DNA from: Tricholomella constricta
Lineage: Eukaryota; Basidiomycota; Agaricomycetes; Agaricales; Lyophyllaceae
DNA: 64,000 nt
Assembly (NCBI GenBank): GCA_013368375.1
Contig: JAACJP010000017.1
Coordinates: 783,768 to 847,767 of the forward strand
Direction: 5' to 3'
Of this stretch, positions 12,171 through 53,774 are shown piece by piece (position 1 is the stretch's first letter; each line of letters starts with the position of its first letter). The position numbers and the translations under genes are program-made. The notes beneath the pieces are model-generated. The model saw only the letters and a program-made list of their open reading frames with translations, did no database searches and had not been told where the DNA came from.

Positions 12171-12181
12171 CCGTTGTGCGA

Positions 12182-13402: not shown

Positions 13403-13513
13403 CTCGAGACGGGACTGGGCGACGATCGGAGCAGGCGCGCGCTGGACGGGTTGCGTGTAGCAGACACGTGTTTCGGCGTGGAGGCTGATCGGTCGGCTTC
13501 GTCGGGTCTCCGG

Positions 13514-13526
13514 TTTACACTATTCT
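13514..13526 (-). other. A1 presumed self-primer binding site
   Basis: This lies 2 nt inside the element from the 5' LTR. In RNA sense it reads AGAATAGTGTAAA, which is the perfect complement of the LTR segment at 13645-13657. It does not begin with TGG as a tRNA-primed site would. Confidence 0.7.
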
Positions 13527-13528
13527 GC

Positions 13529-14032
13529 TGTTAGGGCAACCCTTACAGTGGAGCGCTATCACACTGGCAAGGGGGAATCCGAAGTTATATTGATGTACAG
13601 TAACGAAGGTAAGTAAGGCTTACCTGGCAAGGGGGAATCCGAAGAGAATAGTGTAAAGGATTCCCAAATGCCAGGGGGCCGACTATATACGAGTGTAGGA
13701 CGTGAGGGCTGGTCCTCCAGAGTGTACTGTACATGTAATAATAACGAATGGTGTGCGGCGCGTGTATGGACACGTTCCCGACGCTGTCCGATCCTCGTGG
13801 CCCAGGGTACGGGCACGAGGCGGGGCAGCCGACATCGGGATGTCGGGCGGTCAGGATCAGCATCGGGCGCGTGCGGGGAGTGAGGGGAAGCAACAGGAAG
13901 TGAGTAAGTATGTACACCGACGCTTGGGTCGGAGCGTCGGGTCGGGATCGCGATCGGTCGGTCAGGGGCGAACGCGTGAGTCGGGGAACGATCTGTGAGC
14001 GTCGGAGAGCGTGAACGAGAGTTCCCCTGACA
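13529..14032 (-). repeat. A1 5' LTR (504 bp)
   Basis: The LTR starts TGTTAGGGCA and ends CCCCTGACA on the plus strand, and in element sense it is the promoter LTR. On the element strand a TATATAG box lies about 27 nt upstream of a segment (plus strand 13645-13657) that is complementary, over 13 nt, to the presumed primer-binding site at 13514-13526. Confidence 0.92.
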
Positions 14033-15921
14033 ATCCCGGCACGATAGCATAGAAACCTCATCAAAGAAAACATAGTTCACCCCAGTGAGTCGGGACTTCA
14101 CCTGTGCAAGCTGGGTGGTAGTTTGCTCCAACATGTCGTATATCCCAAAAATTGAATGGTACGTCGAGCCTCTCAAAAGCGCAGCGGCGGTTCCAGTTGG
14201 AGCCACTGCTACAAACCGATGCGACTCCTTCCTTGTTTCAAAATATTTAATAACTGCCTTCAAGACCTGCGACTTTCCTGTGCCACCCATACCAGCAATA
14301 TACATTTTCAGAGGTTCAGAATTTGGGTTGGCAACATGGGCTGCAATGATTGAGAAAGCTCTTTGCTGCTCCTTGTTTAATTTAAAGTCAAGGACAATGC
14401 CTTTAATGGTTGCTTTCCATTTCCCCGTCTGGCATTTTTTGGTGAGGTATGATCTATCTACAATTTCAACAACGTTTGGATCTGCACCCTTGTGGAAATT
14501 GGAGCCAGCATTTTCAGGCATGTTCTTTGTCCTCTGTTCAAGGATTGCTGCCCTTTCCTTTGCTACCGATGCCTTCCACTGACTGCCAGGAATATTGAAT
14601 TCAGGGGGCTCTGGTGCCAGATCCGTATCATCAGGAAGCAAGTTACTTTCTGGATTATGCAATTCGGACCCTTTTATGATTCCGCACATCTCCCGCATGG
14701 TCTCCTCTTTACCAAATCGCATCTTTCCAAGTTCTGAAGAATACCCTAGCTCATCGTCATCCTGGGTCCTAGTCTCATCAAAGGTGAAGTCATCAATCCG
14801 CTGCTCTTGCTGGAATTCTGACATGAAAGAGCTCTGTGCATTGATCCAGCTTGGTAGCAAAGTGTTTCCCTTCTTCATCTGAGCATGAAAGTTGTCTTGA
14901 GCATCCATGCATTCATACTGAATGTTAAAGTTTTTCATTAGCGTTTGATGCCTGGGAATGAATTTAGCATCTGCAAAGGTATCATCCCAGGTTTTTCCCC
15001 TCTTTCTTGAGATCAAGGCCTGATCTCCACGGCATAAACAAGGTAAGCATTGTGGCGCAGTAAAATTCCCGATCACCTCTATCGTAACGTGGCAGCGCTT
15101 GACCAGTAAAGTTGGGTACAACCCCGTTGCAAGGATCTAGACATCTAATGCGGTGAGTCAATGCCAAGGGATGGCCCTCCAAAAAACTATGGATGGTAGA
15201 CTCCGTTCTCTTTCTCATGCCTCCTTTACCGCCGCCCTCTGGCAGGCCTTCCTCCTGTCCTGGATATATTAGACTGTCGTCTTTTTTGCAGAAGTCACGC
15301 TCCTGCTTAATATTGAGGTCAAGCTCAACATCTTCCTCAATAACTTCAACATCTTCAGCATCACCCTTGAAGCGCGTACACCTTGACACCCAATCATACA
15401 GAGACATTGATTCAAGTTCTGGTGCACAATAAATATAATCATATACAGGAGACAGACCCACAACTCTACCATTAGTACGTTGAAGTAACATTACCTTCTC
15501 CGGCAAACGATTGGTGATGCCTTCTTGGTCTGGCCAAGCAGCCAACATTTCCATTACATAGGTTCGCCAATAAAAAGCTTTATATTTGTGACTTGTGTAG
15601 TGATCCGGGTTACCAAGAAGATACAGACATATTAACGGTGATCCTAGTTCCATTTTTACTGTAAGTGTATTTACAATCTTTGTCATGAGCTGTCTTGCCT
15701 TCTCCTGGCGAGGTGCGCTCCCACCTAATACTTCAGTGTTTTTCTGAAAAACAGAGCGCACCGTGTCAAAAATTACATGAGTCTTGAGCGATGTTTTTGT
15801 GACATACTTGGTAACATAGTACATGACGCCCTTTATTGCAGTCCCTGACCACAAACTCGTAACATCAGTATTGCACCGAAAAAGATAAGACACGGCTGCT
15901 GATACTGTGTTAATCCAGGCT
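14033..15921 (-). pseudogene. Helitron Rep C-terminus and helicase N-terminal half, two frameshifts
   Basis: The upper part begins just after a frameshift with the third Rep motif, AIKGVMYYVTKYVTK, which contains the catalytic tyrosines. The helicase follows with Walker A GMGGTGKSQ, near 14270-14295, and Walker B VFFDEVSML. It ends at SCRD where A1 inserted. Two single-base lesions break the frame. One is a missing base near 15917, which should join KKLEP to the next segment. The other is an extra A in an A-run near 15002, between LDLKK and KTWDDTFADAKF. Together with A1 these make the Helitron non-autonomous. Confidence 0.78.
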
Positions 15922-18900
15922 CCAGTTTTTTGATATTAAGCGATCCAGTGGCAGGATCAACTTCAGTCTGCTTGAAAAGTGGCCGAGGGAAGCGGCCGCG
16001 ACAAGTACCCCAAGCATTGTCTAAACAGCCTTGATATTGTCTGCTCTTGTTTTGTGAGCCGTCCTTATTAATATTAGACCTGCACGTATGTATATTTGAC
16101 TTAAACAGGATATCATCAACAGTGAAGGAAAATCGGGTCCACCACGATTTCAATTCTTTACAGCGATCACAGGCAGTGCATTTTTCTAAACATGCATCTG
16201 GAGGTGGCTCGGGTAGTGTCATTATTGGACTTTGATATCCCGGTACCTGAGACGCAGCAGAAACTGCCTCTCGAACCTCATCTAGAGTTCCAGTGGTAAA
16301 TTCACCTTGATGGACTGCCTCCAAATATTGAACAAGTTCACGCTGAAATGGAGATGTTGGGTCCATAATTGCTTTACGCGCCTCATCAGGCGTTAAACCA
16401 TTTCTGATCCAAAGTAAAAGATGGAGGTGGAGAGTCAACCGGCCCTGCTGCTCCACAGTACCATAGTACGCTGATGTCTCACCGTACAGGCCTGGATGAT
16501 CTGAACCGAATCCAAGAACATGTTTGATGAACAGCTTGACCATGAAATCAAAGAAGCGGGCAGCCGCAACGGGATTTTGTGCAATTAGACGGAACCGCTG
16601 GTCATCAGTCCTTAAAATGGGCTTGAACTTCTCATCTGAATCAGCAAAATACAGACATATGGGGTGACATACGTCGGCAGGTGAGAGTGTAATGTACCAT
16701 GAAGGAGCACCTTGATTTGCGACAAGGGACCATATTTCATTCCGCATGAACTTCTTGCTGGTAACAGAACCATTCACCTTTCCCCCGACATGGTCCAAAT
16801 CTCTAATTACCTGGAAACAACATTTTTCCTCTTCTGTTTCAGGCTTCACTACGTCGCCACGTTCCATCCTTTTTGCTATGTCTGCAAGAACATTTTGATC
16901 GACGTCAAGTAAGCGATCGGTAATTTCTTGGAAATTCGCCTTATCTGCTAGCAAGTATCCCCCTGTGGCACTAGCCTTCACCTGCTGATGACTAAAGGCA
17001 GCAAACGGAAAGGCCAAGTCTTTCTGGAAGCGTTTATCGTGATACATTAGCAACTGCTTCTTGTGCGCTGAATCAGAAAGAGACGTTGAGCCTATGCCGC
17101 CTAGACCATAAGGAAACAACCAGGGAAACATCTGAGGGTACAAATCAGGATTGTTATATATCGACTCCATTTTTCCAGAATGTCCTACCCGAAGCGCCTT
17201 GCCGCCAGAATTCCAGTGCTTCAAGGCAATTCCTTTCAATGATTCCACTGACTTTGTACCCAGCTGATCGCCCATCAAGCCATGTACTATGAAAGGAACT
17301 TCACCGGAGTCTATGCCTTCCTCATCACCATTATCATGAACACTCATTGCCTCAGCAATCTTGTTAGTGTCGCTTTGCTTGTACACCACGGAGACCGGAG
17401 GAGAATCTTCAGGGTATTTTGAGAGATTCTCATCCGATATCGCAACGTCTGAATAGTCGAAGTGGTTCAAAATTAGCCATTCCAGAGCATCTCTAACAGC
17501 ACGCCTTCTCACCAAGACAGGCGCACGTTGGTAATCTTCATCTGTCGGTCTGCATGGACCTGTGAATAAGATAGCAAGTACATCATCAAGGTCTTCCACG
17601 GGAGGAGGTAGTGCATCATATATTTTTGGGACTAGTGATTCAAAAGCTACAAGATGTGCCCTCATCTTATGACGGCCAGAGGATGCTACGCGGAGAAAGT
17701 TGCAGTTGTGGCGCACCCGTGCAATTAACAGCCTCTCCATAAAAGTCAAAGAAGAAAGAACTTCTGGGACTTTCCCGAGCCAAAGGCCATTTGCTAAAGC
17801 ACGCGGAGGGACGTTCCCCTTTCTTATATGCACCCTGCAAGTATTACAGACTCTGTTGCATGAATAGTCCAGCACAGGACCTGTATAGCTTTTGATTGGT
17901 TTGGTATCGGATTTCCTCTCTACCCTTGTAACGCCAGGTGCCTCCAGGACATGAAGCATGCATTTAATATGTTTCAAAGGGCTCAAAGAGTGAACAGGGA
18001 CCAACGTACCACACACGGCACAACCTGCTTCTTCTAGAATGTTGGGCACTGACTCAGCGCAAAAATCCTTTATAATTTCATGAGAAAGCTCAGGCGTTAG
18101 AGGAGGAGGGGGAAAGGGTGTGCGATCAAACACTTCGTGGGCGTCCAAGTCGACAACCTTTGCTGCGGCATATCTTTCCTTTTGCGCAGTGTTATACTTA
18201 GCCTTACGAGAGGGGTTGATGGAGAATACAGTAGACAACAAGTTACAAGACAAGCAAGCGTGGCCATCAAAAGCACTTAGCAAATCTGCTTCGTAAGGTC
18301 GACTTGGTAGAGAAACATGGTGAAGCCGTGCCACCTTTTTGACACTGGTCATTGACATGTGTTTTGGAAGCTCATGTACGGGTATTTTTGCATGCACAAA
18401 GCCCTCTCCGGGTGGGTAATTCAAAAGGCCAATGCTGTCAACATGGTCAATAAACTTCAAAGTGTAATCCTCAGAGGACCCTACGAAGTCGCTTGTTATA
18501 AACGGCTTGACATCATCGACAGTGAAAAAGTGGTTTTTTCTCTTCACAGACTTTCCTCCGCCTGTCGGATGAGAATAATGCGGCTTAGAAGGCAAGGTGG
18601 AAATTGCGGTGAATGAATCGCTGGGAGCAAGCGACCAAAATAATGATGAGAAATCATATGCGTGGAAAGCATGGCCAATGCTTGGAAAGAAATCCAAAAC
18701 AGATAAACAGTCCCCAAGCAATATGAAATACGGTAAATGCTTGTCAGAAGTGCAGTCAAGGACAGAACCTGAGGCACACCCAACGCTGAGACGACAGCCG
18801 TGAGTTTCACATGCATGGTGTTGCTCTAATCCAGCTGCAAAATCGTGTTTATACATAAATCCACGCTGCATAAGCCACTTAACAAGAGCGCATGTTCTTT

Positions 18901-19386
18901 TGACATCTGTCCGTGAATCGCTACGTGAAAAAATGCACCAGTTTACAAATCCACGGTGATGCAAAATCATCGTGTGGCAGGTACGGCTACGGAACCAGGC
19001 TTTGAGTGCATCATACAGATATATCCAAGTGTTACGTGATGCTTGGAGATTACGGAGGAAGCAGGGCAACACAGAAGTAGGGTAGGCGTAAAGCGCATAA
19101 CAAGATGGACCAACAGAGAATTGTAGAGAAGTAAAATAGGTACGAGATATATATGGGATGGATGTCGAGGAGTGCAGGATACGGTAGAAAGGCCCGTAGG
19201 GAATGCAGTAAGCCAAAGGCTCATGAAATCGATGGTAAGCCAGAGGCTCATGGACATGGTAAGCCAAAGGCTCATTGTGGTGCATGATGCATATTTTGTA
19301 CCCCAAGTGGGCAGGGATGATTTGGTTTGGCACCGAACTTGAAGCGTTCCGGACATCTGCAATCTGAAGAAAAACACGTTGGTCAA
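15922..19386 (-). pseudogene. Helitron Rep N-terminal part (DUF6570-like plus Helitron_like_N)
   Basis: A long frame carries Cys-pair zinc-finger-like segments (GHACLSC, GCAVCG and NRVCNTCRVH). A DUF6570-like segment follows (ANGLWLGKVPEVLSSLTF). The Helitron_like_N endonuclease domain has WYITLSPADVCHP and the HUH-type metal motif LHLHLLLW at about 16408-16432. Helitrons use this endonuclease to nick and transfer one strand during rolling-circle transposition. The most N-terminal 150 or so residues are low-complexity and may include non-coding sequence. The open frame continues for 34 codons into the 5' LTR of B1, and those codons are not native. The 3' end is lost by the frameshift near 15917. 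Confidence 0.78.
19209..19277. repeat. Short tandem repeat encoding HEPLAY units
   Basis: Three imperfect copies of a segment of about 20 bp, reading GTAAGCCAAAGGCTCAT on the plus strand, lie in the presumed N-terminal Rep region. On the minus strand they translate to repeated HEPLAY peptides. Confidence 0.6.
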
Positions 19387-19743
19387 TGTCACGAACGTCC
19401 CTAACGACCACCCCTAAAGTCACACCCACTACGCTTTCCCACGCACGTCCGCCGTACATATATGACACCACTTCCTTTTCGGACACCTTACCTCGATATT
19501 ACCAATTGTTACGACTAGTCTCTGTTCTCGTTCTTGTTCTCTCTCACTTTCTTGAATCTATTCTGCTTCACTCTCGTATCGCTTAAGCTCATTCGTTCGA
19601 ACAAGCTCTTGCGAACGTCCTTGTCGACGCTCACGACCTCCGAACAACTCTTCGGAGCTCGTCTTCCTCGACAACGTCAGGCCTGTCCGCCTCGGTGGTC
19701 CCGGAATAACTCCGTAACCAGCGTGCTACATCAGGTCCTAACA
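19387..19743 (+). repeat. B1 5' LTR (357 bp)
   Basis: The LTR begins TGTCACGAAC and ends GGTCCTAACA. A TATA-like CATATATG at 19457-19464 lies about 30 bp before the segment 19490-19501, which is the exact complement of the adjacent primer site. Confidence 0.95.
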
Positions 19744-19772: not shown

Positions 19773-22636
19773 ATGTCCTCGACGATAGTGGAGCCTAACA
19801 CAACCATCCGCTATCAAAACTTCGAAGGTCCCTCCTTCACTCAAAGGAGACCTTCACCACCACCCTTCGAAACCTCCCCTGCCTCAACAGGACCTCCGAT
19901 GCAAGGGACTTTCGGATCCAACAGGTCCAGGTTGGAACACCAGATCTTCCAACCTGGCCAACATGAGGGGGATTTTTCCTCAGTCAGTCAGGACCCACGA
20001 CGACCCCTACCCCGAACCCCCTCAAACGTATTCAACCCCTCTTACCAACTCGCCACCCCCAACTATCCCCCCTTACCACCATCCGCAACGACCTCCAGAC
20101 CTCCGCTTTCAAGTAACCAGACTCCCGGATCGTACTACGAAAGGTTGAGGCACCCGGAGATGTTCCAGAGGAGGGATAGGGCACGAGAGGAGGGACAGGG
20201 ACAGTTTGCTCGTCAACAAAACCCCTTTCTACACGGTTCAGACCACGAAAGGATACTCTACGAACTCCGCATGACGCGAGAAGAGTTTTCACGACAAGCG
20301 CACGAGCTCCTAGTCGAAACCATGGGGATGGATCATCAACCCCGAACACCGGAACAATGGGCCAACCTCGTGTTGTCGACCATGCAACTGCACGAAGCCC
20401 ATCGATTACCCCCACAACTGACGGTGTTGCTACAAATGGGGGGAAACGAAAGAAGGTTACGCGCTCTGGCTGGAGAAATCCAGATGTCCAACGAGGGAAG
20501 AAGATTCTCCGACCCCCAAAGCGCGGGACGTTCCTTCCACATGCCAATTCAGGAGCCCGTTCCCTCCAGAATCGAAACTAGATTCGAAGAACCTCCACGG
20601 CGACAAGCACGGTCAATACGCAGACAGCTTCGGCTCTACTCAGGAGGATGAACCAAGGGAACGCTCCCCCCAGCCAAGAAGGGTTCGAACCCACCGTCAC
20701 ACCAGGGGCAGACGCTCGAAGAGCTCCGACGTTCGGGTTCTGGGGAGCCCACAACTTACAAAGAATCCCCGAAGAGAACCCCCCTGTCGAAGGACCGTTT
20801 TCCAGGCCAAATTCGGGTTTTCAGGGCCCACAGGGGACCTTCGCAAACCAAGAAGGAGTACCTCCGAGGGAACCTGAGAACATTCCCCTACCTCCGTCGG
20901 AACGGGGAATCCCAACGCCACTGTCGTACGCCCACAGCTACGAACTACGCGAAGAAAACTCGGAAAGAAGAGAGGGAGCACCCCCTAGGGCACGAGAAGA
21001 CTGGCGCCAAACACCACCTCATCTGGCAAGTCAGAACAGGAGGTCACCACAAGGCCCACGCCCAATCTCCCCAAGAGAACGACGTGGAATCGGAGCGGAC
21101 CCCGGCCCCGGTCAAAACGTAAACATCCTCGACGGAAGGCAAGGGACCCAACAACAATTCCCCCAGTTCGAACAATACAGAACTGGATACAACCCCGGAC
21201 CAGCCCCACCCATACCCGGCGGACGACCGAACCCCCAGTACAACGGACCACCTCCACAGCCCCAACCACCTCCGGGATCTTCGGGACCACCTACCCCGAG
21301 AGGAACTCAATGGGGAAACGGCCCCGGAGGACCAGGAGGGGGAGGAGGAGGTTGTTGGGGAAACGGCCCCAGAAGAACAGGAGGTCCTGGAGGAGGGGGA
21401 GGTCACGGAGGATACGGACCACCACAAGGACCAGGAGGCCCGGGAGGCCCCGGAGGTCCCGGAGGGGGAGGAGGAGGCCACGGAGGAGGAGGAGGAGGAG
21501 GCCCACCCGGAAATCCGGGAGGAGGCCAATTCGCAAACCCTCAACGACCCCCACCTCCACCGCAACAGCTCTTAGGCCCAAACCAAAACCTGACCCCGGA
21601 ACAGTACCGACACCTCCTAAACCTGGAATCGAAAATCGACATCAGGAAACCGGACCCCTTCACTGGAAAAGAACCGAGGAGATGGAAAACCTTCGTCACG
21701 GAATGCCTAGTAACGTTTCAAGCCAAGGCGATCACCTACGAACAGGATCACCTGAAGGTGTCATTCGCGAGCTCCTACTTAAAGGACGGAGCTATGGACT
21801 ACTTTCGGCTGCAACTCACGTACAACCCCCAACACCCGATGTTCACGAATTGAGAAGGATTCGTACACGAATTAGGATCATGCTTCGGAATACCGAACTC
21901 GAGAGTGGAAGCCGAGAACAACATTTCGCGACTGAAAATGAAGGAATGGGAAAAGTTCACAGCATTCATCATCAAGTTCGAACAAGAAGCGTACGAAACA
22001 GGCTGGAACTGGGTAGCACTACAGTTCACACTCCGGAAAGCGCTCCCCCAACGAATCCTTAACGTCCTGGCCATCGCACCAAGCCCCGAAACCTACGAAG
22101 GTTACCGAGATCTGGTCACTCAAATCGATCGGAGGTACTGGGAACATCGCATAGAAAATCCAGAGTCCTACAAACCCCTCTGGGCGAATAACGCGAACAC
22201 CCCCAACACCTCCGCACGACCTCCGATGGGACCTTCGGCCGGACCCGCAAGCCGCACGACGCCGCAAACGGCTCAAGGGAACAGGAACGCACGCTTGAAC
22301 GCTGAAAGTCACGATCAGGACCCGGACTCAGGTAAGGAAGGTAAGGCGCAAGACCAAGAAATCGCATGGGATGACGAAGAGGCACTACAAGCCAACAACA
22401 TCGGGTTCAAGAAGTCAACGCGCCCCTGGGTGAAGATCGATGAAGACGTAAAGCAACAACGAATTCGAGACAAGGCCTGCATCCTATGCGGTGACCTGGA
22501 ACACTGGATGCGCGACTGCCCAACAGCAAACGCCATGGGCAGAGCCACCTACCTCATCGGCGACGACATCTTCGAATTCCATCACAAGACAGAAGAGGGA
22601 AACGCGGGGGCGATTCAGGACTTACCCGGGCTCTGA
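19773..22636 (+). pseudogene. B1 gag, one frameshift and an in-frame TGA
   Basis: Gag starts MSSTIVEPNT at 19773. It has a Pro/Arg-rich N-terminus, a helical segment (ILYELRMTREEFSRQAHELL), a strongly Gly/Pro-rich stretch at about 21300-21540, and a capsid-like region (KIDIRKPDPFTGKEPRRWKT; EAENNISRLKMKEWEKFTAF). The C-terminal zinc knuckle is CILCGDLEHWMRDC. A base missing near 20600 relative to B2 shifts the frame. An in-frame TGA at 21851-21853 follows MFTN and is also present in B2; the frame continues as EGFVHELGSCFG. A Trp codon is the likely ancestor. The zinc knuckle lies downstream of this stop, so no complete gag can be made without readthrough. Confidence 0.85.
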
Positions 22637-22638
22637 AT

Positions 22639-25600
22639 CGCGAAGACCTAAAACCGGACCTTGACACTAAACTACGCGCAACGGCATTATCGACAACGGA
22701 CACCCGCACAGTAACTCTCTCCTCCCATTCGTCACTGGCATTCCTAATATACCTCACGCCAAACGGAGGAGGAGAAGACCCCGAAAACACGCTCATCGAC
22801 AGCGGAGCTACCGACAACTTCATGGACTCCGTCATGGCGACATCACGTGGGCTCCACCTTGAGGAGCTCAACCCCCCAATAAACCTCTGCCTATTCGACG
22901 GAGAACTCTCCGCATCAGGCAAAATCACACACTATACCACCAACAAAGTCAAATTCAGTGACGGCACCACTCAGAGGATAAGATTCCTCATAACGAAACT
23001 CCACGAGACAGCGACGATAGTACTGGGACTATCATGGCTGAAGGAGGTCAATCCCCACATAAATTGGAAAGACCTCTGCATCACGCTACGACAGGGGTCA
23101 AACGGCAAAATCGAAGGATCACTACCGGACCTCCGAAGGAAAAAGGAAGTCGCTCCAACAACAACAGGCACAGGAGCTCAACGCTTACCCTCGTGGTCGG
23201 CTCGCTTCTTCACGATCGAAGTACAGTTGGAGGGATCTGCAACGCGTCTACGGGCACTTATTGATAGTGGGGCGGCGGGCAACTTCATAACAAAATCCTC
23301 GTGTACAAAGCCGGAACCTCTCGCCAACCCCATGACCCTACAACTGTTCGACGGAAACCCCAGCGGAGGCGGAGCCATTTCACACCATAGTCCCGAAACG
23401 ATCAAACTCGAGAACGGACTAGAGTATAAGGTCGACCTCCTCATAACACAGTTACATCCAGCCACACCATTAGTGCTCGGATTACCTTGGTTACGGGAAG
23501 CAAATCCGGACATCGACTGGCGGGAAATGTCCATGACCATGGAACAAGGAGCAGGACTAGCCGCGATATCGCTTTCCCAGAAGACGCAATGGGGAACCGT
23601 GACCCTTGAGGAGGAGGAAGACGTCGAAGCTCCGAAACCAGCCAACCCCCTTTCGGAAAAACAACCCCTCCTCAGGGACCTCCTGGACGACGACAATGAT
23701 CAGAACGACACCTCCAGCGACAACATGAAGGAGGAAGACACCCGCCCAAACACCAACGAACCCCAAGAGGAAGTACCAACACCGACAACCGAGTCGCCAG
23801 AGGAGGTAACGGGACGGAAACGCACCCGAAAACCACCTCCACCCAACTACTTCCCTCCAAACGTTCCGAGGTCCAAATTCAAACCCCACCCCAAACGGAA
23901 ACCCGCAACGTCCCCAACGACAGAAACACAGGAAGAAGAGGAAACCGACCCGGAAACGGAGGTCGAAGACGAAACCGGAGAGGGAGAAGAGGATGTCGAA
24001 ACACAAAGCATCCGCCTGATCGGAGCGGCGCCATTCGCGAACCTCATCAGGGACGGAGCCACAGCGTTTCAACTACACATCTCCCCCACCGAACAGGAAG
24101 AACAGCTCCATGCCAATAATACCTCCGACGACGAACCCAAGCAACCAAAGACAGAAAAGGAAATCTTTGAGGAAGTCGTACCTCCGGAGTACAGGGACTT
24201 CGAAGACGTATTCTCAGCGGGCGAAGCGAAAACCATCCCCCCACACCGACCTTACGATCACACAGTGGAACTCGACGAAAACACTACCCCTCCTTTCGGA
24301 AAGATATACAACATGTCCGAACTGGAGTTGAAAGCATTGAAGGATTACATCGACGAGATGCTCGGTAAAGGGTTCATCCGACCTTCGAGTTCGTCAGCGG
24401 GAGCTCCGGTACTGTTCGCAAAGAAGAAGGACGGATCACTCCGGCTATGCGTGGACTATAGAGGACTAAATCGGATCACCAAGAAGAACCGTTACCCTCT
24501 ACCCCTGATCGGAGACCTCATAGACCGACTTCAAAAAGCAAAAGTATACTCGAAGATCGACCTCCGAGTGGGCTACAACAACGTCCGCATAGCTCCGGGA
24601 CACGAATGGAAGACAGCCTTCCGCACTCGCTATGGACTTTTCGAATACCTGGTAATGCCCTTCGGCATGACAAACTCACCCGCGACGTTCCAACACTTCA
24701 TGAACGACATCTTTCACGACATGAATGACGTGTTCGTAGTGATCTATCTCGACGACATTCTGGTTTTCTCGGAGACCTTAGAGGAACATCACGGACACGT
24801 TCGGAAGGTCCTCGAGAGGCTCCGGAAACACAACCTTCATGCGAAACCGGAGAAATGTACGTTTCACACTGCGGAGATCGAATATCTAGGCGTCATCGTA
24901 TCCCCCGGCGGAGTAAAGATGGATCCAGGAAAAGTCGACGCGATCCGGAAGTGGCCTAGACCGACGAAGGTCAAAGAACTCCAATCCTTCCTAGGCTTTG
25001 CAAACTTCTATCGGCGGTTTATCGACAATTACTCGGGCATAACGAAGAGGTTAAATAAACTCACGCAAAAGGACACAATCTGGAAATGGGATTCCGAATG
25101 CGAAGGAGTCTTCGAGCTATTGAAGAAAGCATTCTCCTCCGCACCCATCCTACGACACTTCGATCCTCAACTACAGGTGATACTAGAGTGCGATGCCTCC
25201 GACTTCGCCATAGCGGGGATCATCTCCCAATTTGACGAGACATCACAAGACTTACGTCCGGTCGCCTTCTACGCGAGAACTATGATAGACGCGGAGCTCA
25301 ACTACGACATCTATGACAAGGAGCTCCTAGCAATCGTGGAAGCGTTTAAACAATGGAGGGCCTACCTAGAGGGATCTCCCCACCGCATTCAAGTGTACTC
25401 CGACCACAACAACCTACAGTACTTCTCCACGACCAAACAACTCAGTCGCAGACAAGCACGATGGTCGGAATGCCTGGCGAACTTCGACTTCCAGATAAAC
25501 TATCGACCCGGAAGACTGGGAGCGAAGCCAGATGCCCTTACGCGAAGAGCGGACGTGTATCCAAAGAAGGGTTTCGAGCAGGATCACAACTCCTTCAACA

Positions 25601-27102
25601 ACCGCATCATCATACCCCCCGAACGATTGAACGCGGCCCTAATACTGAACGAGGAGCTCCTACTAAACAATGTCCGGAACGCACCCCGAGACGATTTCTT
25701 CGAAAGGCATGCACCCAAACCCGGAGAAGAGACCTCCGCATTCTCCCTATCCGATGATCACAAACTACTCCTTCGCGACGGAAGAATCTATGTACCAGAC
25801 CATTCCAGATTACGACTCGACATCCTACAGCAACACCACGATCACAAACTGCGCGGACATCCAGGGATCAGAAAGACCACACAACTCATCATGAGGACTT
25901 ATTTCTGGCCCGGATTACGGAAGGAGGTCACTCGATACGTCCGAAGCTGTCATACCTGTAAAAGAGCGAAGGTCCCACGCCATAGCCCATACAGATTATT
26001 GAAACCACTCCAGATTGGGCGAAGGGCGTGGGCCTCCATATCCATGGACCACATCGTAGAATTACCGGAATCGGATGGGTACGACGCCATACTGGTCGTA
26101 GTATGCCGCCTCACCAAGCAAGGCATCTTCATACCCTGTCACACAACGGACACAGCAAAGGCACTTGCTCAGCTATTCTTGGAACATGTCTTCTCCAAGC
26201 ACGGACTGCCCGATGACATCATCTCCGACAGAGGCACCCTCTTCGTCTCCCGTTTCTGGAGCTCGCTATGTAAAGCCCTGGACATCAAATCGAACCTTTC
26301 GACCGCGTATCACCCGGAGACCGACGGCCAGACGGAACGAGTAAATCAGACACTGGAACAATACCTCCGGATGTACGTGAACTATCTCCAGACCAACTGG
26401 CGAACCCAGCTCCCTCTGGCGGAATTCACGTATAACAATACGACCCATTCGACCACGGGAGTTTCCCCTTTCTTTGCGAACAAGGGTTATCACCCCCGCT
26501 TGACAATCTCTATAAAAGATATACCGGCGAAAGAAGCCCAGGAGGTAGCCGTAGACCTCCGGACCCTCCAGGACTACCTCCGCAAAGAAATAGAGATCGC
26601 AAACGAAGCCTACAAACGATTCGCGGACAAGAAGCGGGACCCTACACCAGACTGGGCTGTAGGAACGGAGGTATGGCTCGACTGCCGGAACATCAAAACG
26701 AAACGCCCCTCCAAAAAGCTAGACCACCGGAGACTGGGCCCCTTCAAAATCCTGCAGAAGATTTCCAGCCATGCGTATCGACTGGAACTACCTCCGACAC
26801 TGAAAGGGATTCACAACGTATTCCACGTCAAGTTACTCGAGAAGCACGAACACGAGAATTTCCCTGGACGATCAAAACCACCTCCGCAGATGATCAAAGT
26901 CGAGGGCGAAGAACACTACGAAGTGGGACAAATCCTAGATTCCCGAACACGAGGGAAACATGTCCTCTACTTGGTACGATGGGAAGGGTACGGCCCCGAA
27001 GACGATACCTGGGAACCAGCGGAGAATATGGAGGGAGCAAAAGACATGGCCCTCGAATTCCACCGACTTTTCCCAAGAAAGCCACGGGACCCCACGATTT
27101 AA
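22639..27102 (+). CDS. B1 pol with two tandem retropepsins, RT, RNase H, integrase and chromodomain
   Basis: Pol lies in the -1 frame relative to gag and overlaps its end. The first in-frame ATG is 22822, but the first protease starts upstream, so expression by frameshift is likely. Two retropepsin-like domains occur in tandem: LIDSGATDNFMD at about 22792 with IVLGLSWL, then LIDSGAAGNFIT at about 23257 with LVLGLPWL. An acidic linker follows. RT has KKKDGSLRLCVDYRGLNRI and the intact catalytic box VIYLDDILVF. RNase H has ECDASDFAIAGI, KELLAIVEAF and YSDHNNLQYF. Integrase has HHDHKLRGHPGIRKTT with CHTCKRAK, and DDE motifs MDHIVELPES, ISDRGTLFVSRF and TAYHPETDGQTERVNQ. A chromodomain (LYLVRWEGYGPEDDTWEP) ends the protein. 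The frame is open throughout and looks functional. Confidence 0.9.
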   Translation, partial: REDLKPDLDTKLRATALSTTDTRTVTLSSHSSLAFLIYLTPNGGGEDPENTLIDSGATDNFMDSVMATSRGLHLEELNPPINLCLFDGELSASGKITHYTTNKVKFSDGTTQRIRFLITKLHETATIVLGLSWLKEVNPHINWKDLCITLRQGSNGKIEGSLPDLRRKKEVAPTTTGTGAQRLPSWSARFFTIEVQLEGSATRLRALIDSGAAGNFITKSSCTKPEPLANPMTLQLFDGNPSGGGAISHHSPETIKLENGLEYKVDLLITQLHPATPLVLGLPWLREANPDIDWREMSMTMEQGAGLAAISLSQKTQWGTVTLEEEEDVEAPKPANPLSEKQPLLRDLLDDDNDQNDTSSDNMKEEDTRPNTNEPQEEVPTPTTESPEEVTGRKRTRKPPPPNYFPPNVPRSKFKPHPKRKPATSPTTETQEEEETDPETEVEDETGEGEEDVETQSIRLIGAAPFANLIRDGATAFQLHISPTEQEEQLHANNTSDDEPKQPKTEKEIFEEVVPPEYRDFEDVFSAGEAKTIPPHRPYDHTVELDENTTPPFGKIYNMSELELKALKDYIDEMLGKGFIRPSSSSAGAPVLFAKKKDGSLRLCVDYRGLNRITKKNRYPLPLIGDLIDRLQKAKVYSKIDLRVGYNNVRIAPGHEWKTAFRTRYGLFEYLVMPFGMTNSPATFQHFMNDIFHDMNDVFVVIYLDDILVFSETLEEHHGHVRKVLERLRKHNLHAKPEKCTFHTAEIEYLGVIVSPGGVKMDPGKVDAIRKWPRPTKVKELQSFLGFANFYRRFIDNYSGITKRLNKLTQKDTIWKWDSECEGVFELLKKAFSSAPILRHFDPQLQVILECDASDFAIAGIISQFDETSQDLRPVAFYARTMIDAELNYDIYDKELLAIVEAFKQWRAYLEGSPHRIQVYSDHNNLQYFSTTKQLSRRQARWSECLANFDFQINYRPGRLGAKPDALTRRADVYPKKGFEQDHNSFNNRIIIPPERLNAALILNEELLLNNVRNAPRDDFFERHAPKPGEETSAFSLSDDHKLLLRDGRIYVPDHSRLRLDILQQHHDHKLRGHPGIRKTTQLIMRTYFWPGLRKEVTRYVRSCHTCKRAKVPRHSPYRLLKPLQIGRRAWASISMDHIVELPESDGYDAILVVVCRLTKQGIFIPCHTTDTAKALAQLFLEHVFSKHGLPDDIISDRGTLFVSRFWSSLCKALDIKSNLSTAYHPETDGQTERVNQTLEQYLRMYVNYLQTNWRTQLPLAEFTYNNTTHSTTGVSPFFANKGYHPRLTISIKDIPAKEAQEVAVDLRTLQDYLRKEIEIANEAYKRFADKKRDPTPDWAVGTEVWLDCRNIKTKRPSKKLDHRRLGPFKILQKISSHAYRLELPPTLKGIHNVFHVKLLEKHEHENFPGRSKPPPQMIKVEGEEHYEVGQILDSRTRGKHVLYLVRWEGYGPEDDTWEPAENMEGAKDMALEFHRLFPRKPRDPTI

Positions 27103-27303: not shown

Positions 27304-29300
27304 CTACTCGATGCGACGACGCTTGGAGGGACCTGCACTGGCAGAGGAACCGTCCTCGCGCCCAACCCCCACCTCCCCAACCACCCCTACCTCCAGAGGA
27401 AGCATCGACGCGATGTCCTGCTCGTCGTCGGCGATCAATTGAGACTGAGACACGAACCCCGCAAGGGCGTCTTCACGAGTGAGAGATGGACGATGAAGAG
27501 CAAGGAAATGCTCGAAGGCGGGAAAAGGGGACTCGGGATCGACGGGAGGGCGAAAAAGCTCGCGGAGAGAATGCTGCTCAAGAATCTGGTGAGCGGCGTC
27601 GACGATACCCCGGACCGGCGACGCCTCCATCTCGACGAGGGCGCGACGCAGAGCGCCATCCGCAACAAACATATCGGATGCAAAAGCAACACGCGCAAGC
27701 TCAAGGGCTACAACAAATTCCGGAGGTGAAAAAAGAGAACGAAAGAAGACAAAAGAAAGACTCACCATCGGTGCGAACGCGAAGGTCCAAGGCGTGACCA
27801 CGCCAATAGTCCCGAACCTCCTGGAGATGGACGACGTGCCCCTTCAGACCCGCAACCTCATCCTCAAGACCCGCAACCTCCATCCGCAGATCCTCGACCT
27901 TGGCGTCACGATCAATGTCGACGACCTCCACGGCACTCGATGTCTGCGCCTGCAGATGAAGGAAACGTTCACGCTCGTCGGCGAGTTCGGCTAGGACTCC
28001 ACGAAAACGACCCTTGTTGCGTTCGCCCTCGGCCTGGAGACGCTCTACCTGGAGGGACAAAGCCTGCGCACGCGCGACCTCCTGGTCATAGAGGCGCCGA
28101 AGACGGAGGTGCTCCTCAGGCGAAGGAGCAAGAAGGGCAGGAGCAGCGGGGGGGGACGAAATCAACATAGCAGGAGGGGAAGCCTGGTGCAGAACCGGTG
28201 AGGGAGAGACCGATTCAGACGAACTCTTTAAAAAGAGAGGCTCCGAGGGCCCGACAATGGGAGAATCCGGAGAAGCGGCACGCATGGCGGCCCCAAGACG
28301 ACGAACAGGGAAAGGGGAAACCGAGCTATCGGAGGGGGGAGGAGAATAACCAGGCATAGGCGAAGGGCGCGCCTCCGGAGCAGACAAGCGCGCACCCCCA
28401 CGACCGACAGGCACAGACCTTCGTCCCTGACCTCGCGTACCACGGAAAATAGCACGAGGAGGGGGAGCAGGAGGAAGTGAAACGGCACCAGTCCCTACAA
28501 CGGACGAAGAGGCGGCGGGAAGAGGAGGCGGGATTGGCAAACGCAGGGCGCGACGGATGCTGGTAAAAGACATCGCAACGCCAGGGCGGGAGAAAGTAAA
28601 ACCCTCGGCGCGAGAGCGAAGCCACTCCAACGGAATTCCCAACTGCCTAGCTGCCACCTCTAGGCCCTGGTCCAACGAAAGCGAGCACAGGGAATGCGCC
28701 GCACGACACTCAACACAGGGCAGGGTCCCACGAAGACGAACCTCCTGAAATCGACAAGACAGCCGACGCGTCCGACACCGATCACACTAACGAAGACCCC
28801 GAAAAGGAATCAGCTGAAACGCTGGACTCGATCGCAGAAGAAGGGCGACATACCGGCTCATGCGCCTCACACCATGCCAAGGAGGGAGGAACCCGCACAG
28901 CGGTACGCAACACCTCCGCCAAAATTGCATCAGTGAAGAGGGGCCCCCACGACAACGAAGTCGCCGCCGGACGCGACACAGGGTCACTAGCAAACTCGAA
29001 GTCGGCCTCGGGAGTGGTGGAACGAGGGCGACGGATCTGTTGGGATCGAATGGGCAGGCGGATGATCAGACGAGGGACAGGAGGTGGGAGAGGAACGGGG
29101 GACGACTCGGGGACCGCCCCGTCACTCCCATCGAGAAGGGTGGCAATCCCAGGGAGAAAGGGCGCCGGGGAAACGGGTTGAGGCGCGTCTAAGGACGCGA
29201 CGCGCGACCGATCTTCGTCGATCAAAGGCGCCACGCCCGGATCTCGCAAAGCGGGGGCATTAGGAGGAGGAGACGCGACACGGGGCATAGGAGGCGACAT
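27304..29300 (-). CDS. Antisense spliced gene of element B1: Zn(II)2Cys6-type, coiled-coil, basic C-terminus
   Basis: On the strand opposite pol, three exons (28854-29300, 27766-28786, 27304-27707) join through 67- and 58-nt GT-AG introns to a 623-residue protein. Exon 1 is Pro/Ser-rich. The first splice creates CDRCRTRRLSC followed by PCVECRAAHSLC, a CX2CX6CX12CX2CX6C pattern at about residues 150-183. This fits the fungal Zn(II)2Cys6 binuclear-cluster consensus. A long Pro/Ser/Arg-rich region follows, then a heptad-rich segment (LRRLYDQEVARAQALSLQVE; VAGLEDEVAGLKGHVVHLQE). Exon 3 begins ALELARVAFASDMF and ends SKRRRIE, a probable nuclear localisation signal. The ATG lies about 220 bp inside the 3' LTR. 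Between them are two CACGTG boxes (29405-29410, 29416-29421) and a pyrimidine-rich tract. B2 carries the same gene with the same splice sites. A DNA-binding or regulatory role is inference. Confidence 0.72.
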
Positions 29301-29519
29301 GAGGTCGACAGAATTGAAACAGAAGAAGAAAAACGACCAAGTTCTTCTCCTTTTCGATCTCCGAGATCCTCAAAACACCCACAAGGACCCACAACTGAGG
29401 CCCTCACGTGCCCCTCACGTGACCGCGCGCGCGCACCAAAAAGGAAAAACAAACGCCACATTCCCCGTATCCGAACATTTTTCCGCGTCTCAGTGGCTCG
29501 ACGCTTGAGGAGGGGGTAA

Positions 29520-29876
29520 TGTCACGAACATCCCTAACGACCACCCCTAAAGTCACACCCACTACGCTTTCCCACGCACGTCCGCCGTACATATATGACA
29601 CCACTTCCTTTTCGGACACCTTACCTCGATATTACCAATTGTTACGACTAGTCTCTGTTCTCGTTCTTGTTCTCTCTCACTTTCTTGAATCTATTCTGCT
29701 TCACTCTCGTATCGCTTAAGCTCATTCGTTCGAACAAGCTCTTGCGAACGTCCTTGTCGACGCTCACGACCTCCGAACAACTCTTCGGAGCTCGTCTTCC
29801 TCGACAACGTCAGGCCTGTCTGCCTCGGTGGTCCCGGAATAACTCCGTAACCAGCGTGCTACATCAGGTCCTAACA
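29520..29876 (+). repeat. B1 3' LTR (357 bp)
   Basis: This is nearly identical to the 5' LTR; the differences I see are G/A near base 11 and C/T in GTCYGCC. It is preceded by the polypurine tract GAGGAGGGGGTAA and followed by the GTCAA duplication. Confidence 0.95.
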
Positions 29877-29881
29877 GTCAA

Positions 29882-34953: not shown

Positions 34954-35138
34954 CCAAAGTTATCGTTGCTTATGCGACGTACAGGCGCCCAACTCTAGCA
35001 GCGTGCATGGAGTATGAAAACTGCTGGTGGATCCTGCCCAGTCGACCTGCTCAACTATGCCGCCCTGGAGTCGGCGTCTTGACCCATACTCCTAGCTTCA
35101 GGGGTTGGGCATATGGAGCCGGATATGGCTCCTGTCCA

Positions 35139-35790
35139 AGATCGCGCGCCTAGTTTGGGGCTGCGATCTTCAGAGTCAGTTTGGGCTCTGCTACCATGCA
35201 CCTCACCCATGCCCCTAGTTTGGGGGGCGTGGTGTATCGAGCCAGTTTGGGCTCGTGTCGAGGACGCCTACCACGATCGCGCGCCTAGTTTGGGGCCGTG
35301 ATCTTCAGAGCCAGTTTGGGCTCTGTTTCCATGCACCTCACCCATGCCCCTAGTTTGGGGGGCATGGTGTATCGAGCCAGTTAGGGCTTGTGTCAAGGAC
35401 GCCTACCACGATCGCGCGCCTAGTTTGGGGCCGTGATCTTCAGAGCCAGTGTGGGCTCTGTTACCGTGCACCTCACCCATGCCCCTAGTTTGGGGGGCAT
35501 GGTGTATCGAGCCAGTTTGGGCTCGTGTCGAGGACGCCTACCGGGATTACATGCCTAGTTTGGGGCCGTGATCTTCAGAGCCAGTTTGGGCTCTGTTACC
35601 GTGCACCTCTCCCATGCCCCTAGTTTGGGGGGCGTGGTGTATCGAGCCAGTTAGGGCTTGTGTCGAGGACGCCTGCCACGATTGTGCGCCCAGTCTGTGG
35701 CCGTGATCTCCAGAGCCAGTTAGGGTCTTGTTCCCCTACACCTCACCTGTGCCCTTAGTTTGAGGGTGTGAGCAACTCTGGCTCCTTTTA
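35139..35790. repeat. 135-bp minisatellite, about 4.7 copies, with a half-unit substructure
   Basis: The landmark ATCGCGCGCC recurs, with variants, at 35141, 35276, 35411, 35546 and 35681, exactly 135 bp apart. Each unit holds two related halves of about 67 bp. Each half contains CCTAGTTTGGGG followed by GAGCCAGTTTGGGCTC. The last copy is the most diverged. Confidence 0.93.
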
Positions 35791-36196
35791 TCATTAGTTC
35801 AATTCATTTCAATTTCAATTTCAATCTATCTCTTTTCTACATTGCTGTGGGGCGCCAAGGCGTCTCAGAGGCATCCGCACACCTTGTGGTTGCTCTCATA
35901 TGACGCGCGTACGCCACCTCAAAATCAGCGCACAGACCATCTTACTACTATGCTATTCTATCGTTGGCTTCTGCACTTTGAACACTAGACCGGTTTTCAA
36001 AGGACATTGCCCAGACCTTTTGCTATTTTATTTCCAATATATTGCTTCAAAGGCACACTAGGCTACTAGTGTCATGGACCAATGTGCGTGACCATCGCCT
36101 GGCAAAACGCGATCACGTGATCTGTCACTTAAATAATGATATGCCAGCTCATGAAGCAGCGGACTCCGTTGCTTTTGCCTCTGCCTTTCCTCATAC
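35791..36196. other. Upstream region of the PHD-like gene
   Basis: This is AT-richer sequence with a TTCAATTTCAATTTCAAT run near 35805. No coding support was found apart from a frame overlapping the next gene that I reject. Confidence 0.4.
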
Positions 36197-43747: not shown

Positions 43748-44012
43748 CGCCCTACTTATTCCTGCGGTGCCTCCTTGCCCTATCCTCATAGTCTTCCGCA
43801 GCCTTGTCGGTACCTTTTTTTTCTGTGCTTGGCCCGGCCCCTCGTCGTCGCTGTCGTTCCTCGTACGCCTTGTCGTCGTCCTTCATATGCGCCTCGAATA
43901 GCATCTGCGCATCATCAATTGTAATCCTGGTCCGGTAGCCATCTTTGCTCCGCGCCTCTAGCTCCTTCTTGGGAATCTGATTCAATACGAAGGTGCTGCA
44001 TGTCACGGTGTC

Positions 44013-44546
44013 TGTTAGGGCAACCTTACAGTGGAGCGCTATCACACTGACAAGGGGGAATCCGAAGCTATATTATGTACAGTAAGGAATGTAGTAAAGG
44101 CAGGCCTACCTGACAAGGGGGAATCCGAAGAGAATAGACTAAAGGATTCCCAGATGTCAGGGGAACGACTATATATGACGTATGTACGTGAGGGCAGGTC
44201 CTCTAAGGTATACTGTACATGTAATGACAGGGAAGGGTCAGTGGCGCGTGTATGTACATGTCCCCGACACTGTCCGACCCTCGTGACTCAGGGTGCAGGC
44301 ACGAGGTTGGGCGCGTGATCATCTGAGGAGTGATCGGTCACGTGCTCATCCGAGGAATCGGATGGTCACGTGATCGCAGTCAGGGGACGGTTGGTGATTA
44401 AATGAGTGTATGGGTATGTAGGAGTATGTACACGACGCTGGGGGCAGAGCGTCGGGGATGCGATCGGGATCGGGACGAGAGCGATCGTGCGCAGTCGGGG
44501 GACGACCAGAGAGCGTCGGAGGGCGTGAACGGGAGTTCCCCTGACA
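44013..44546 (-). repeat. A2 3' LTR (534 bp)
   Basis: The LTR starts TGTTAGGGCA and ends CCCCTGACA. It contains two CACGTG boxes (44339-44344 and 44367-44372) that the A1 LTRs lack. The stop codon of the polyprotein is immediately adjacent. Confidence 0.95.
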
Positions 44547-49574: not shown

Positions 49575-49691
49575 CTCGAGACGGGACTTAGCGACGGTCG
49601 AAGCGAACGGGCGTCTGACAATGCTGCGCGCGGCGAACACGTGTTTCGGCGCGAGGGCTTGACTCGTCAACCTTGTCGGGTCTCTGGGATG

Positions 49692-51777: not shown

Positions 51778-53774
51778 ATGTCGCCTCCTATGCCCCGTGT
51801 CGCGTCTCCTCCTCCTAATGCCCCCGCTTTGCGAGATCCGGGCGTGGCGCCTTTGATCGACGAAGATCGGTCGCGCGTCGCGTCCTTAGACGCGCCTCAA
51901 CCCGTTTCCCCGGCGCCCTTTCTCCCTGGGATTGCCACCCTTCTCGATGGGAGTGACGGGGCGGTCCCCGAGTCGTCCCCCGTTCCTCTCCCACCTCCTG
52001 TCCCTCGTCTGATCATCCGCCTGCCCATTCGATCCCAACAGATCCGTCGCCCTCGTTCCACCACTCCCGAGGCCGACTTCGAGTTTGCTAGTGACCCTGT
52101 GTCGCGTCCGGCGGCGACTTCGTTGTCGTGGGGGCCCCTCTTCACTGATGCAATTTTGGCGGAGGTGTTGCGTACCGCTGTGCGGGTTCCTCCCTCCTTG
52201 GCATGGTGTGAGGCGCATGAGCCGGTATGTCGCCCTTCTTCTGCGATCGAGTCCAGCGTTTCAGCTGATTCCTTTTCGGGGTCTTCGTTAGTGTGATCGG
52301 TGTCGGACGCGTCGGCTGTCTTGTCGATTTCAGGAGGTTCGTCTTCGTGGGACCCTGCCCTGTGTTGAGTGTCGTGCGGCGCATTCCCTGTGCTCGCTTT
52401 CGTTGGACCAGGGCCTAGAGGTGGCAGCTAGGCAGTTGGGAATTCCGTTGGAGTGGCTTCGCTCTCGCGCCGAGGGTTTTACTTTCTCCCGCCCTGGCGT
52501 TGCGATGTCTTTTACCAGCATCCGTCGCGCCCTGCGTTTGCCAATCCCGCCTCCTCTTCCCGCCGCCTCTTCGTCCGTTGTAGGGACTGGTGCCGTTTCA
52601 CTTCCTCCTGCTCCCCCTCCTCGTGCTATTTTCCGTGGTACGCGAGGTCAGGGACGAAGGTCTGTGCCTGTCGGTCGTGGGGGTGCGCGCTTGTCTGCTC
52701 CGGAGGCGCGCCCTTCGCCTATGCCTGGTTATTCTCCTCCCCCCTCCGATAGCTCGGTTTCCCCTTTCCCTGTTCGTCGTCTTGGGGCCGCCATGCGTGC
52801 CGCTTCTCCGGATTCTCCCATTGTCGGGCCCTCGGAGCCTCTCTTTTTAAAGAGTTCGTCTGAATCGGTCTCTCCCTCACCGGTTCTGCACCAGGCTTCC
52901 CCTCCTGCTATGTTGATTTCGTCCCCCCCCGCTGCTCCTGCCCTTCTTGCTCCTTCGCCTGAGGAGCACCTCCGTCTTCGGCGCCTCTATGACCAGGAGG
53001 TCGCGCGTGCGCAGGCTTTGTCCCTCCAGGTAGAGCGTCTCCAGGCCGAGGGCGAACGCAACAAGGGTCGTTTTCGTGGAGTCCTAGCCGAACTCGCCGA
53101 CGAGCGTGAACGTTTCCTTCATCTGCAGGCGCAGACATCGAGTGCCGTGGAGGTCGTCGACATTGATCGTGACGCCAAGGTCGAGGATCTGCGGATGGAG
53201 GTTGCGGGTCTTGAGGATGAGGTTGCGGGTCTGAAGGGGCACGTCGTCCATCTCCAGGAGGTTCGGGACTATTGGCGTGGTCACGCCTTGGACCTTCGCG
53301 TTCGCACCGATGGTGAGTCTTTCTTTTGTCTTCTTTCGTTCTCTTTTTTCACCTCCGGAATTTGTTGTAGCCCTTGAGCTTGCGCGTGTTGCTTTTGCAT
53401 CCGATATGTTTGTTGCGGATGGCGCTCTGCGTCGCGCCCTCGTCGAGATGGAGGCGTCGCCGGTCCGGGGTATCGTCGACGCCGCTCACCAGATTCTTGA
53501 GCAGCATTCTCTCCGCGAGCTTTTTCGCCCTCCCATCGATCCCGAGTCCCCTTTTCCCGCCTTCGAGCATTTCCTTGCTCTTCATCGTCCATCTCTCACT
53601 CGTGAAGATGCCCTTGCGGGGTTCGTGTCTCAGTCTCAATTGATCGCCGACGACGAGCAGGACATCGCGTCGATGCTTCCTCTGGAGGTAGGGGTGGTTG
53701 GGGAGGTGGGGGTTGGGCGCGAGGACGGTTCCTCTGCCAGTGCAGGTCCCTCCAAGCGTCGTCGCGTCGAGTAG
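51778..53774 (+). CDS. Antisense spliced gene of element B2: Zn(II)2Cys6-type, coiled-coil, basic C-terminus
   Basis: The exons are 51778-52224, 52292-53312 and 53371-53774, with introns of 67 and 58 nt. The introns start GTATGT and GTGAGT and end TTAG and GTAG. The 623-residue product is the counterpart of the B1 antisense protein, with changes such as PPVDP to PPIDP and KRRRIE to KRRRVE. The binuclear-cluster cysteines, created by the first splice, are all conserved. Two CACGTG boxes lie at 51657-51662 and 51668-51673. A CT-rich tract precedes the ATG. The frame is open although gag in this copy carries two frameshifts plus the shared TGA. This protein may act on LTRs or host promoters, but that is inference. 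An alternative is that it is a host gene captured in reverse orientation by an ancestral element. Confidence 0.72.

Follow-up and report, generated by a model that had tools for sequence, protein, structure and literature searches.

In the mushroom Tricholomella constricta, the Ty3/gypsy retrotransposon family B, whose pol has a chromodomain, carries an antisense, intron-containing gene, its third, between pol and the 3′ long terminal repeat (LTR). The stretch of DNA analyzed, hereafter the window, comprises 64,000 nucleotides (nt) of contig JAACJP010000017.1 (assembly GCA_013368375.1, positions 783,768 to 847,767) and holds two copies of the element, B1 and B2. Judging from the comparisons below, the antisense frame is almost certainly a real spliced protein-coding gene. 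Its spliced frame and both introns were shown, by alignment of copies from the whole genome, to be conserved across subfamilies in the manner of a gene under purifying selection. In the elements compared, the gene and the neighboring U3 part of the LTR were likewise shown by pairwise identities to behave as one recombining module on different gag-pol backbones, a linkage that the original prediction, made from the letters of the window, had missed. Our best explanation, to which we give a probability of about 0.55, is that the encoded protein is a regulator of its own element.

Structure of the antisense gene

The exons and introns of the gene in B1, and the copy in B2, are as follows.

28854..29300, minus strand: exon 1 (447 nt, 149 codons; boundary kept in divergent subfamilies)
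28787..28853, minus strand: intron 1 (67 nt, GTATGT...CTGATT...TTAG)
27766..28786, minus strand: exon 2 (1021 nt; six-cysteine core, proline/serine-rich linker, and coiled coil)
27708..27765, minus strand: intron 2 (58 nt, GTGAGT...GTAG)
27304..27707, minus strand: exon 3 (404 nt; conserved C-terminal region, ending in SKRRRIE)
51778..53774, plus strand: B2 copy of the antisense gene, intact (exons 51778-52224, 52292-53312, and 53371-53774)

Spliced translation of the B1 exons (29300-28854, 28786-27766, and 27707-27304) gave 623 codons and one stop, in frame, as predicted for three antisense exons between pol and the 3′ LTR, and the first splice does create the CX2CX6CX12CX2CX6C motif that had been claimed for it. 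If intron 1 is left unspliced, its acceptor TAG is an in-frame stop immediately 5′ of the first cysteine of the cluster. The B2 copy, which had been described as open with identical splice sites, is exactly that, and differs from B1 at 3 of 1872 coding bases and 2 residues. The same splicing applied to a further copy, L015 (contig C28), yields, letter for letter, a deposited T. constricta protein, P0001 (NCBI hypothetical protein D9615_008569).

Conservation and selection

To count family members, we searched the genome (44 Mb, 118 contigs) and obtained 46 DNA matches to the antisense gene, of which 23 were full-length at about 97% identity or more and were counted as family B; the other 23 (partial, interrupted, or more diverged) were excluded from this count. 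The spliced frame is open in 18 of the 23 full-length copies (broken in 5), and both introns are bounded by GT-AG in all 23. The search for further members that the original prediction had proposed also recovered divergent intact subfamilies, about 60-80% identical in protein, that keep both introns. Intron 1 ranges from 58 to 83 nt in other copies with GT-AG retained; in eight divergent copies it reads GTAAGT...YTAG in 8/8, and intron 2 reads GTGAGT...TAG in 7/8, the acceptor being altered in L075. Separate searches with the region encoding the six-cysteine motif (the zinc core) and with pol scored 150 of 224 and 150 of 636 candidates, respectively; fragments of one pol may count twice, and all counts from these searches are lower bounds. 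Of the 110 listed zinc-core places, 105 contain a single stop, which is a TAG, 4 contain the TAG and a second stop, and the remaining one begins downstream of the TAG. The table of these stops gives no stop position; in the divergent copies inspected, the TAG is the intron 1 acceptor.

Length changes respect the frame in intact copies. Within the intact subfamily at 80% identity (4 copies, L029-L032), exon indels measure 6, 3, 3, and 9 nt, and intron indels measure 2, 11, and 5 nt, with 1 nt in two copies. In two degraded copies, L033 and L034a, exons have gained or lost single bases, and stops number 3 and 12, respectively.

We calculated the ratio of nonsynonymous to synonymous substitution rates (dN/dS) among five subfamily representatives picked for intact frames (B1, L031, L072, L073, and L074). 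All 10 pairs gave antisense dN/dS values between 0.196 and 0.316 over hundreds of substitutions, and third codon positions had changed about twice as often as first positions. By region, dN/dS was 0.06-0.33 in the zinc core, 0.05-0.18 in residues 80-142, 0.11-0.26 in residues 185-236, 0.13-0.35 in the coil, and 0.10-0.17 in residues 491-623. Pol was more tightly constrained, at 0.02-0.08 in pairs that lack the degraded L033 and have more than a handful of changes, and at 0.19 with L033; its ratio is unusable for the upstream part of B1/L031 and for B1/B2, where there are too few differences. Among the 23 family-B copies, singleton variants comprised 45 nonsynonymous (one of them a stop) and 22 synonymous changes, a polymorphism ratio (pN/pS) of 0.76; pN/pS was 0.44 for two-copy variants and 0.66 for commoner ones. 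This pattern would be expected for young copies derived from few sources and is by itself no evidence of selection. The original prediction would have been given up had dN/dS been near 1 with frequent stops; we found 0.20-0.32 between subfamilies and a weak signal within family B. A chance open frame is ruled out by the conservation, the splice sites, and dN/dS, and transcription and splicing of the antisense strand are indirectly indicated by the conserved introns.

Two groups of copies share structural changes. L035 (C55) and L036 (C34) have a common internal deletion of about 347 base pairs (bp) (query 1189-1535) that takes out the zinc core together with most of intron 1, beside an open pol. 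In L024, L025, and L026, exon 3 is interrupted near query position 85-86 by a shared insertion of about 220 bp.

The host element and its distribution

The remaining parts of B1 are listed here; the boundary between U3 and R was drawn from the recombination pattern described below.

19387..19743, plus strand: 5′ LTR of B1 (357 bp, 99.44% identical to the 3′ LTR)
21905..22636, plus strand: downstream piece of interrupted gag (CCHC-like knuckle, 17.2 bits, cut-off 20.8)
22822..27102, plus strand: pol (protease, reverse transcriptase, RNase H, integrase, and chromodomain, from Pfam)
29507..29516, plus strand: polypurine tract 5′ of the 3′ LTR (seen in the sequence; a conserved block in the alignment)
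29520..29876, plus strand: 3′ LTR of B1 (357 bp; about 29520-29655 U3-like, about 29665-29876 R-U5-like)

Pfam models placed the domains of the open reading frame (ORF) at 22822-27102 in chromovirus order with a C-terminal chromodomain (Chromo, 49.2 bits, cut-off 25.1); the matches to the integrase core (27.6 bits, cut-off 32.6) and the protease (23.6 bits, cut-off 28.2) were weak. With this domain order, the chromodomain, the LTRs, a polypurine tract, and a target duplication (GTCAA at 19382-19386 and 29877-29881), B1 has the attributes of a Ty3/gypsy chromovirus.

B1, B2, and one copy on C18 have in common a short gag frame of 260 aa (B1 region 20648-22636). Elsewhere, many of 126 gag matches lie in frames of at least 900 aa, and short frames occur in other copies too. 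The lesion of these three copies looks inherited rather than independent, and they are possibly mobilized in trans. It had been observed that gag is shifted in both copies in the window, which is correct; the accompanying argument for selection, that the antisense frame had outlasted gag, does not hold, because a lesion that looks inherited does not represent two independent losses. B2 (51202-61720) has no matching target duplication (GGGCC / CCGCC). We take B2 to be a recombinant, since its flanks are unmatched and its R-U5 is 99% L029-like, yet its pol (99.4%) and its near-identical antisense gene match B1.

Among the listed zinc-core places, 98/110 have, on the expected side and no more than 4 kb away, a B-type pol in opposite orientation (median distance 1469 bp); none of the 110 has a same-strand pol on that side, and 12 have no pol there. 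Conversely, the antisense gene lies on the opposite strand at 98 of the 108 listed pol places with at least 58% identity (B-type), and a gene of the antisense family accompanies 0 of the 42 listed places with less related chromovirus pol (46-50% identity). Three different intact versions of the gene are found in recent insertions: B1 (LTRs 99.44% identical, GTCAA), L031 on C21 (LTRs 100% identical, flanks CGCGC/CGCGC), and L072 on C6 (LTRs 100% identical, flanks GTTCT/GTTCT).

Wider homologue searches with single proteins returned two T. constricta proteins only, among about 8000 candidates scored (where low-complexity words fill the list) or 349. An alignment search returned one T. constricta protein only among about 8000 scored, eukaryote genome collections being outside the scope of these searches, and a scan of IMG/VR gave no relative.

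The gene and U3 as a recombining module

Comparison of L031 with B1 located a change in relatedness. In pol, the two are 99-100% identical up to about 26600, 94-95% identical to about 27000, and then 76-88% identical across the antisense gene and the LTR; L031 itself is a clean recent insertion, given its identical LTRs and CGCGC/CGCGC flanks. Synonymous divergence (dS) gives the same picture. For B1/L031, pol dS upstream of 26600 is 0.003 (442 codons) versus an antisense dS of 0.535; for C2/C30, the values are 0.036 (210 codons) versus 0.441, and for B1/C30, 0.200 versus 0.775. L029 and L031 have a near-identical antisense gene (dS 0.032), yet their pol dS to B1 is 0.177 and 0.003, respectively. 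In L034, the changeover falls inside the antisense gene, near 28200.

U3 tracks the antisense gene, with identities of 96% for B1/B2, 94% for L031/L029, and 98% for C6/L034b. R-U5 shuffles separately: B2 and L029 are 99% identical, as are L031 and C2, and B1 and B2 only 81%, but C6 and L034b stay together at 100%. When strand transfer occurs between two co-packaged RNAs, U3 and its neighbor come from the 3′ end of one RNA and R-U5 from the 5′ end of the other. The observed mosaic of U3 and R-U5 is the pattern expected from such template switching. The antisense gene is therefore inherited together with the promoter-bearing U3.

Between the start codon of the antisense gene and the 3′ LTR, a control-region alignment of 9 rows contains several conserved blocks, two of which we list.

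29356..29368, no strand assigned: conserved palindrome GATCTCCGAGATC, a candidate operator, between the antisense ATG and the LTR
29405..29421, no strand assigned: two CACGTG boxes, presumed antisense promoter (first in 9/9 rows, second in 8/9)

The palindrome GATCTCSGAGATC is exact in 7/9 rows, with one base altered in two C6-type rows. With one mismatch allowed, each element has a single site and the window no other (29356-29368 and 51710-51722). The palindrome could control the antisense gene itself. The alignment further contains a CACCCACAAGGACCCACAA-like block and a polypurine block.

Features of the predicted protein

Four features of the protein were located in B1.

28685..28786, minus strand: zinc-cluster-like core CX2CX6CX12CX2CX6C (residues 149-182)
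27941..28120, minus strand: predicted long helix, possible coiled coil, part 1 (about residues 371-430; AlphaFold2 confidence, as predicted local distance difference test (pLDDT), 69-81 by block over most of it)
27770..27922, minus strand: predicted long helix or coiled coil, part 2 (about residues 437-487; block pLDDT 65-75)
27313..27324, minus strand: KRRR, a nuclear-localization-like basic patch (residues 618-621)

The core has the six-cysteine spacing of fungal Zn(II)2Cys6 factors (CX2CX6CXnCX2CX6C), and 15 of the 16 distinct stop-free cores retain all six cysteines, a count from a search pattern that itself demanded the first cysteine and FQEV. The protein resembles these factors also in the proline before the fourth cysteine, the basic first loop, and a coiled coil and basic patch elsewhere, and the UniRef name of the deposited copy starts with “Zn(2)-C6 fungal-type domain.” It differs in that its score straddles the Zn_clus cut-off and matches mostly part of the model, and in that its coiled coil lies about 190 residues past the core, whereas in Gal4-type proteins the coiled coil adjoins the zinc core. 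The heptad-like stretch and the C-terminal SKRRRIE noted earlier are both present. The heptad pattern is weak in part 1 of the helix (L/I/V/M at 7 of about 17 a/d positions); in the best register of part 2, L/I/V/M is found at 9 of about 15 a/d positions. The C-terminal patch reads KRRR in four subfamilies and KRCR in the fifth, and a second basic patch, RRPR, is found at residue 90.

In Gal4-type proteins, the first C-X6-C loop bears DNA-contacting basic residues. Across the five intact subfamilies, this loop varies at 4/6 positions versus 3/22 elsewhere in the core (Fisher p 0.021); across 15 distinct cores, it varies at 6/6 versus 8/22 (p 0.008).

A candidate regulator of its own element and the alternatives

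We infer the step from a conserved, spliced antisense gene to a regulator of its own element, and propose the following sequence of events. Transcription by the host would start at a promoter in the 220 bp or so that separate the ATG of the gene from the 3′ LTR, or in the 3′ LTR itself; reverse transcription would leave the introns in place, since on the sense genomic RNA these stretches are no introns. The protein would then enter the nucleus, dimerize through the coiled coil, and bind DNA of its own element through the zinc-cluster-like domain, most likely at U3 or the adjacent conserved blocks, and thereby set the transcription of the element or shield it from silencing. Co-inheritance of gene and U3 through template-switching recombination would keep the regulator with the promoter that it suits. 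From the sequence evidence, we slightly favor a nuclear regulator of this kind; direct binding to U3 or just upstream, taken alone, has in our view somewhat less than an even chance. A further extension seems to us doubtful: gene and U3 may form a swappable cassette of regulator and promoter, in which the factor reads the control sequences of its own subfamily, the pair moves between near-identical gag-pol backbones, and diversification, including that of the presumed DNA-recognition loop, prevents cross-regulation of co-resident subfamilies. Its logic would be that of phage immunity regions or of the pairs formed by VANC and its targets.

Several observations weigh against a DNA-binding regulator. 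Zn_clus is the best Pfam family for the whole protein at 14.4 bits (E 0.041), below the cut-off of 21. Isolated cores scored 22.0 for B1 (60 aa) and 17.3-19.6 for four others, so only B1 passes, and in 4/5 cores the first triad aligns with the second half of the model. The predicted Zn(II)2Cys6 type is thus right in its cysteine spacing and borderline as a family assignment. AlphaFold2 models are of low confidence, with mean pLDDT 54.3 for exon 2 (12 rows; zinc region 39-67 by block) and 64.1 for a 95-residue model (zinc region 57-66 by block), and a search of solved structures by sequence gave no relative. The variability of the first loop hints at DNA binding and no more, since the rows share ancestry and CpG-containing arginine codons may account for part of it. 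Constraint is loose in the N-terminal 79 residues (dN/dS 0.32-0.65) and the linker (0.31-0.59), and selection is clear only between subfamilies and weak within family B. As an LTR operator, the palindrome is ruled out, the site not being in the LTR. Finally, linkage alone is no proof of interaction or function, as gene and U3 are neighbors about 220 bp apart, and the B1/C6 pair is far less discordant than the others (pol dS 0.458, antisense 0.626).

Among the alternatives, an anti-silencing factor like VANC of Arabidopsis VANDAL elements would bind motifs of its own subfamily and remove or block host DNA methylation, without acting directly on promoter strength. Near-identical pol with very different antisense versions fits such a factor, and PMC5735166 describes VANC as a sequence-specific anti-silencing protein, encoded by a transposable element, whose relatives differ in target spectra; the same source has VANC targets often in tandem repeats, and no array was obvious between the antisense ATG and the LTR, where no dedicated scan was made. 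We consider this unlikely on balance. Less likely again is a nuclear accessory protein that acts after transcription or in integration, for instance in RNA export, in the preintegration complex, or in target choice. The coiled coil, the nuclear-localization-like end, and a zinc domain borderline for Zn_clus would all suit it, but the chromodomain of pol already provides a targeting device, and the module swaps with U3.

The readings that deny the protein a role for the element fare worst. A host or foreign gene captured once and kept through amplification of the lineage could produce the pN/pS of 0.44-0.76 within family B, but hardly the ratios of 0.20-0.32 between subfamilies, the kept introns, the presence beside 98/108 listed B-type pol places, or the three intact versions in recent insertions; this passenger reading is largely refuted, and we rate it as very improbable. 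At the foot of the scale, and hardly different from it, is a function of the antisense RNA rather than the protein, through double-stranded RNA or transcriptional interference with the sense RNA. Antisense transcripts may yield double-stranded RNA and small interfering RNA, as discussed for plant elements in PMC7264820, but protein-level constraint, exon indels in triplets, and conserved splice sites are needless for an RNA role.

Comparison with known systems

In plant Grande and Retand, and as brtn in Botrytis Boty, an antisense gene between pol and the 3′ LTR has been described before (PMC11963269, PMC7264820, PMC8365987, PMC4227169, PMC5987419, PMC5408684), and the family-B gene shows the coding conservation used to define the antisense additional ORF class aORF-3R. 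The original prediction needs correcting here, since fungi already offer such a gene in brtn (PMC8365987, PMC7264820): in Boty of Botrytis cinerea, a gypsy element, an antisense gene sits in the same place, and the gag-pol of Boty also has a chromodomain, a likeness taken from published descriptions alone (PMC4227169, PMC7264820, PMC8365987). Plant Retand, with TRP28, is similar in the position, strand, and occurrence of the gene in most copies and in the proposal of a nuclear or DNA-binding regulator (PMC11963269, PMC7264820). Retand belongs to a non-chromovirus lineage (PMC11963269), whereas family B is a chromovirus whose gene has a zinc-cluster-like core and two conserved introns. Our general Pfam scan gave no TRP28-type match, and the two proteins are set side by side by description only. 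The main text of PMC11963269 does not contain “intron,” “zinc,” or “fung,” and “splic” occurs in its reference list only.

Two further systems are analogies of working. HBZ of human T-cell leukemia virus 1 (HTLV-1) is, as described in the literature, an antisense gene with spliced and unspliced messages whose leucine-zipper protein opposes the viral transactivator Tax; it is a basic leucine zipper rather than zinc-cluster-like protein, from an animal retrovirus. VANDAL elements are plant DNA transposons, unlike family B. Their VANC embodies a similar idea, as a type-specific DNA-binding factor encoded by the element and diversifying between related elements (PMC5735166). No zinc-cluster gene in a retrotransposon appeared among the entries listed from the open PMC literature, as judged by titles and the openings of abstracts. 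Within the reach of these searches, three features are new here: the conservation of splicing, a core resembling a zinc cluster, and recombination together with U3. An antisense gene at such a position was already known.

Other elements in the window

A Helitron-like element spans 5282-19486, with Helitron_like_N and DUF6570 at 15833-19486 on the minus strand. Its PIF1-like helicase is apparently split (13559-15121 / 5282-7765) by the insertion of a chromovirus, whose gag-pol occupies three ORFs that overlap or adjoin (8176-13402). A second chromovirus family, at 44547-49670, has one open gag-pol frame of 1707 aa between identical 300-base repeats (44012-44311 and 49703-50002). A tandem array of a 135-bp repeat occupies 35136-35810, with three later copies 94%, 93%, and 77% like the reference stretch.

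Significance

The additional genes that LTR elements carry in antisense have long been puzzling, and family B adds a case with conserved introns, a recognizable if borderline DNA-binding-like motif, and measurable constraint. Because several natural types of the gene occur on similar backbones in one genome, whether the antisense protein reads its own LTR is a directly testable question.

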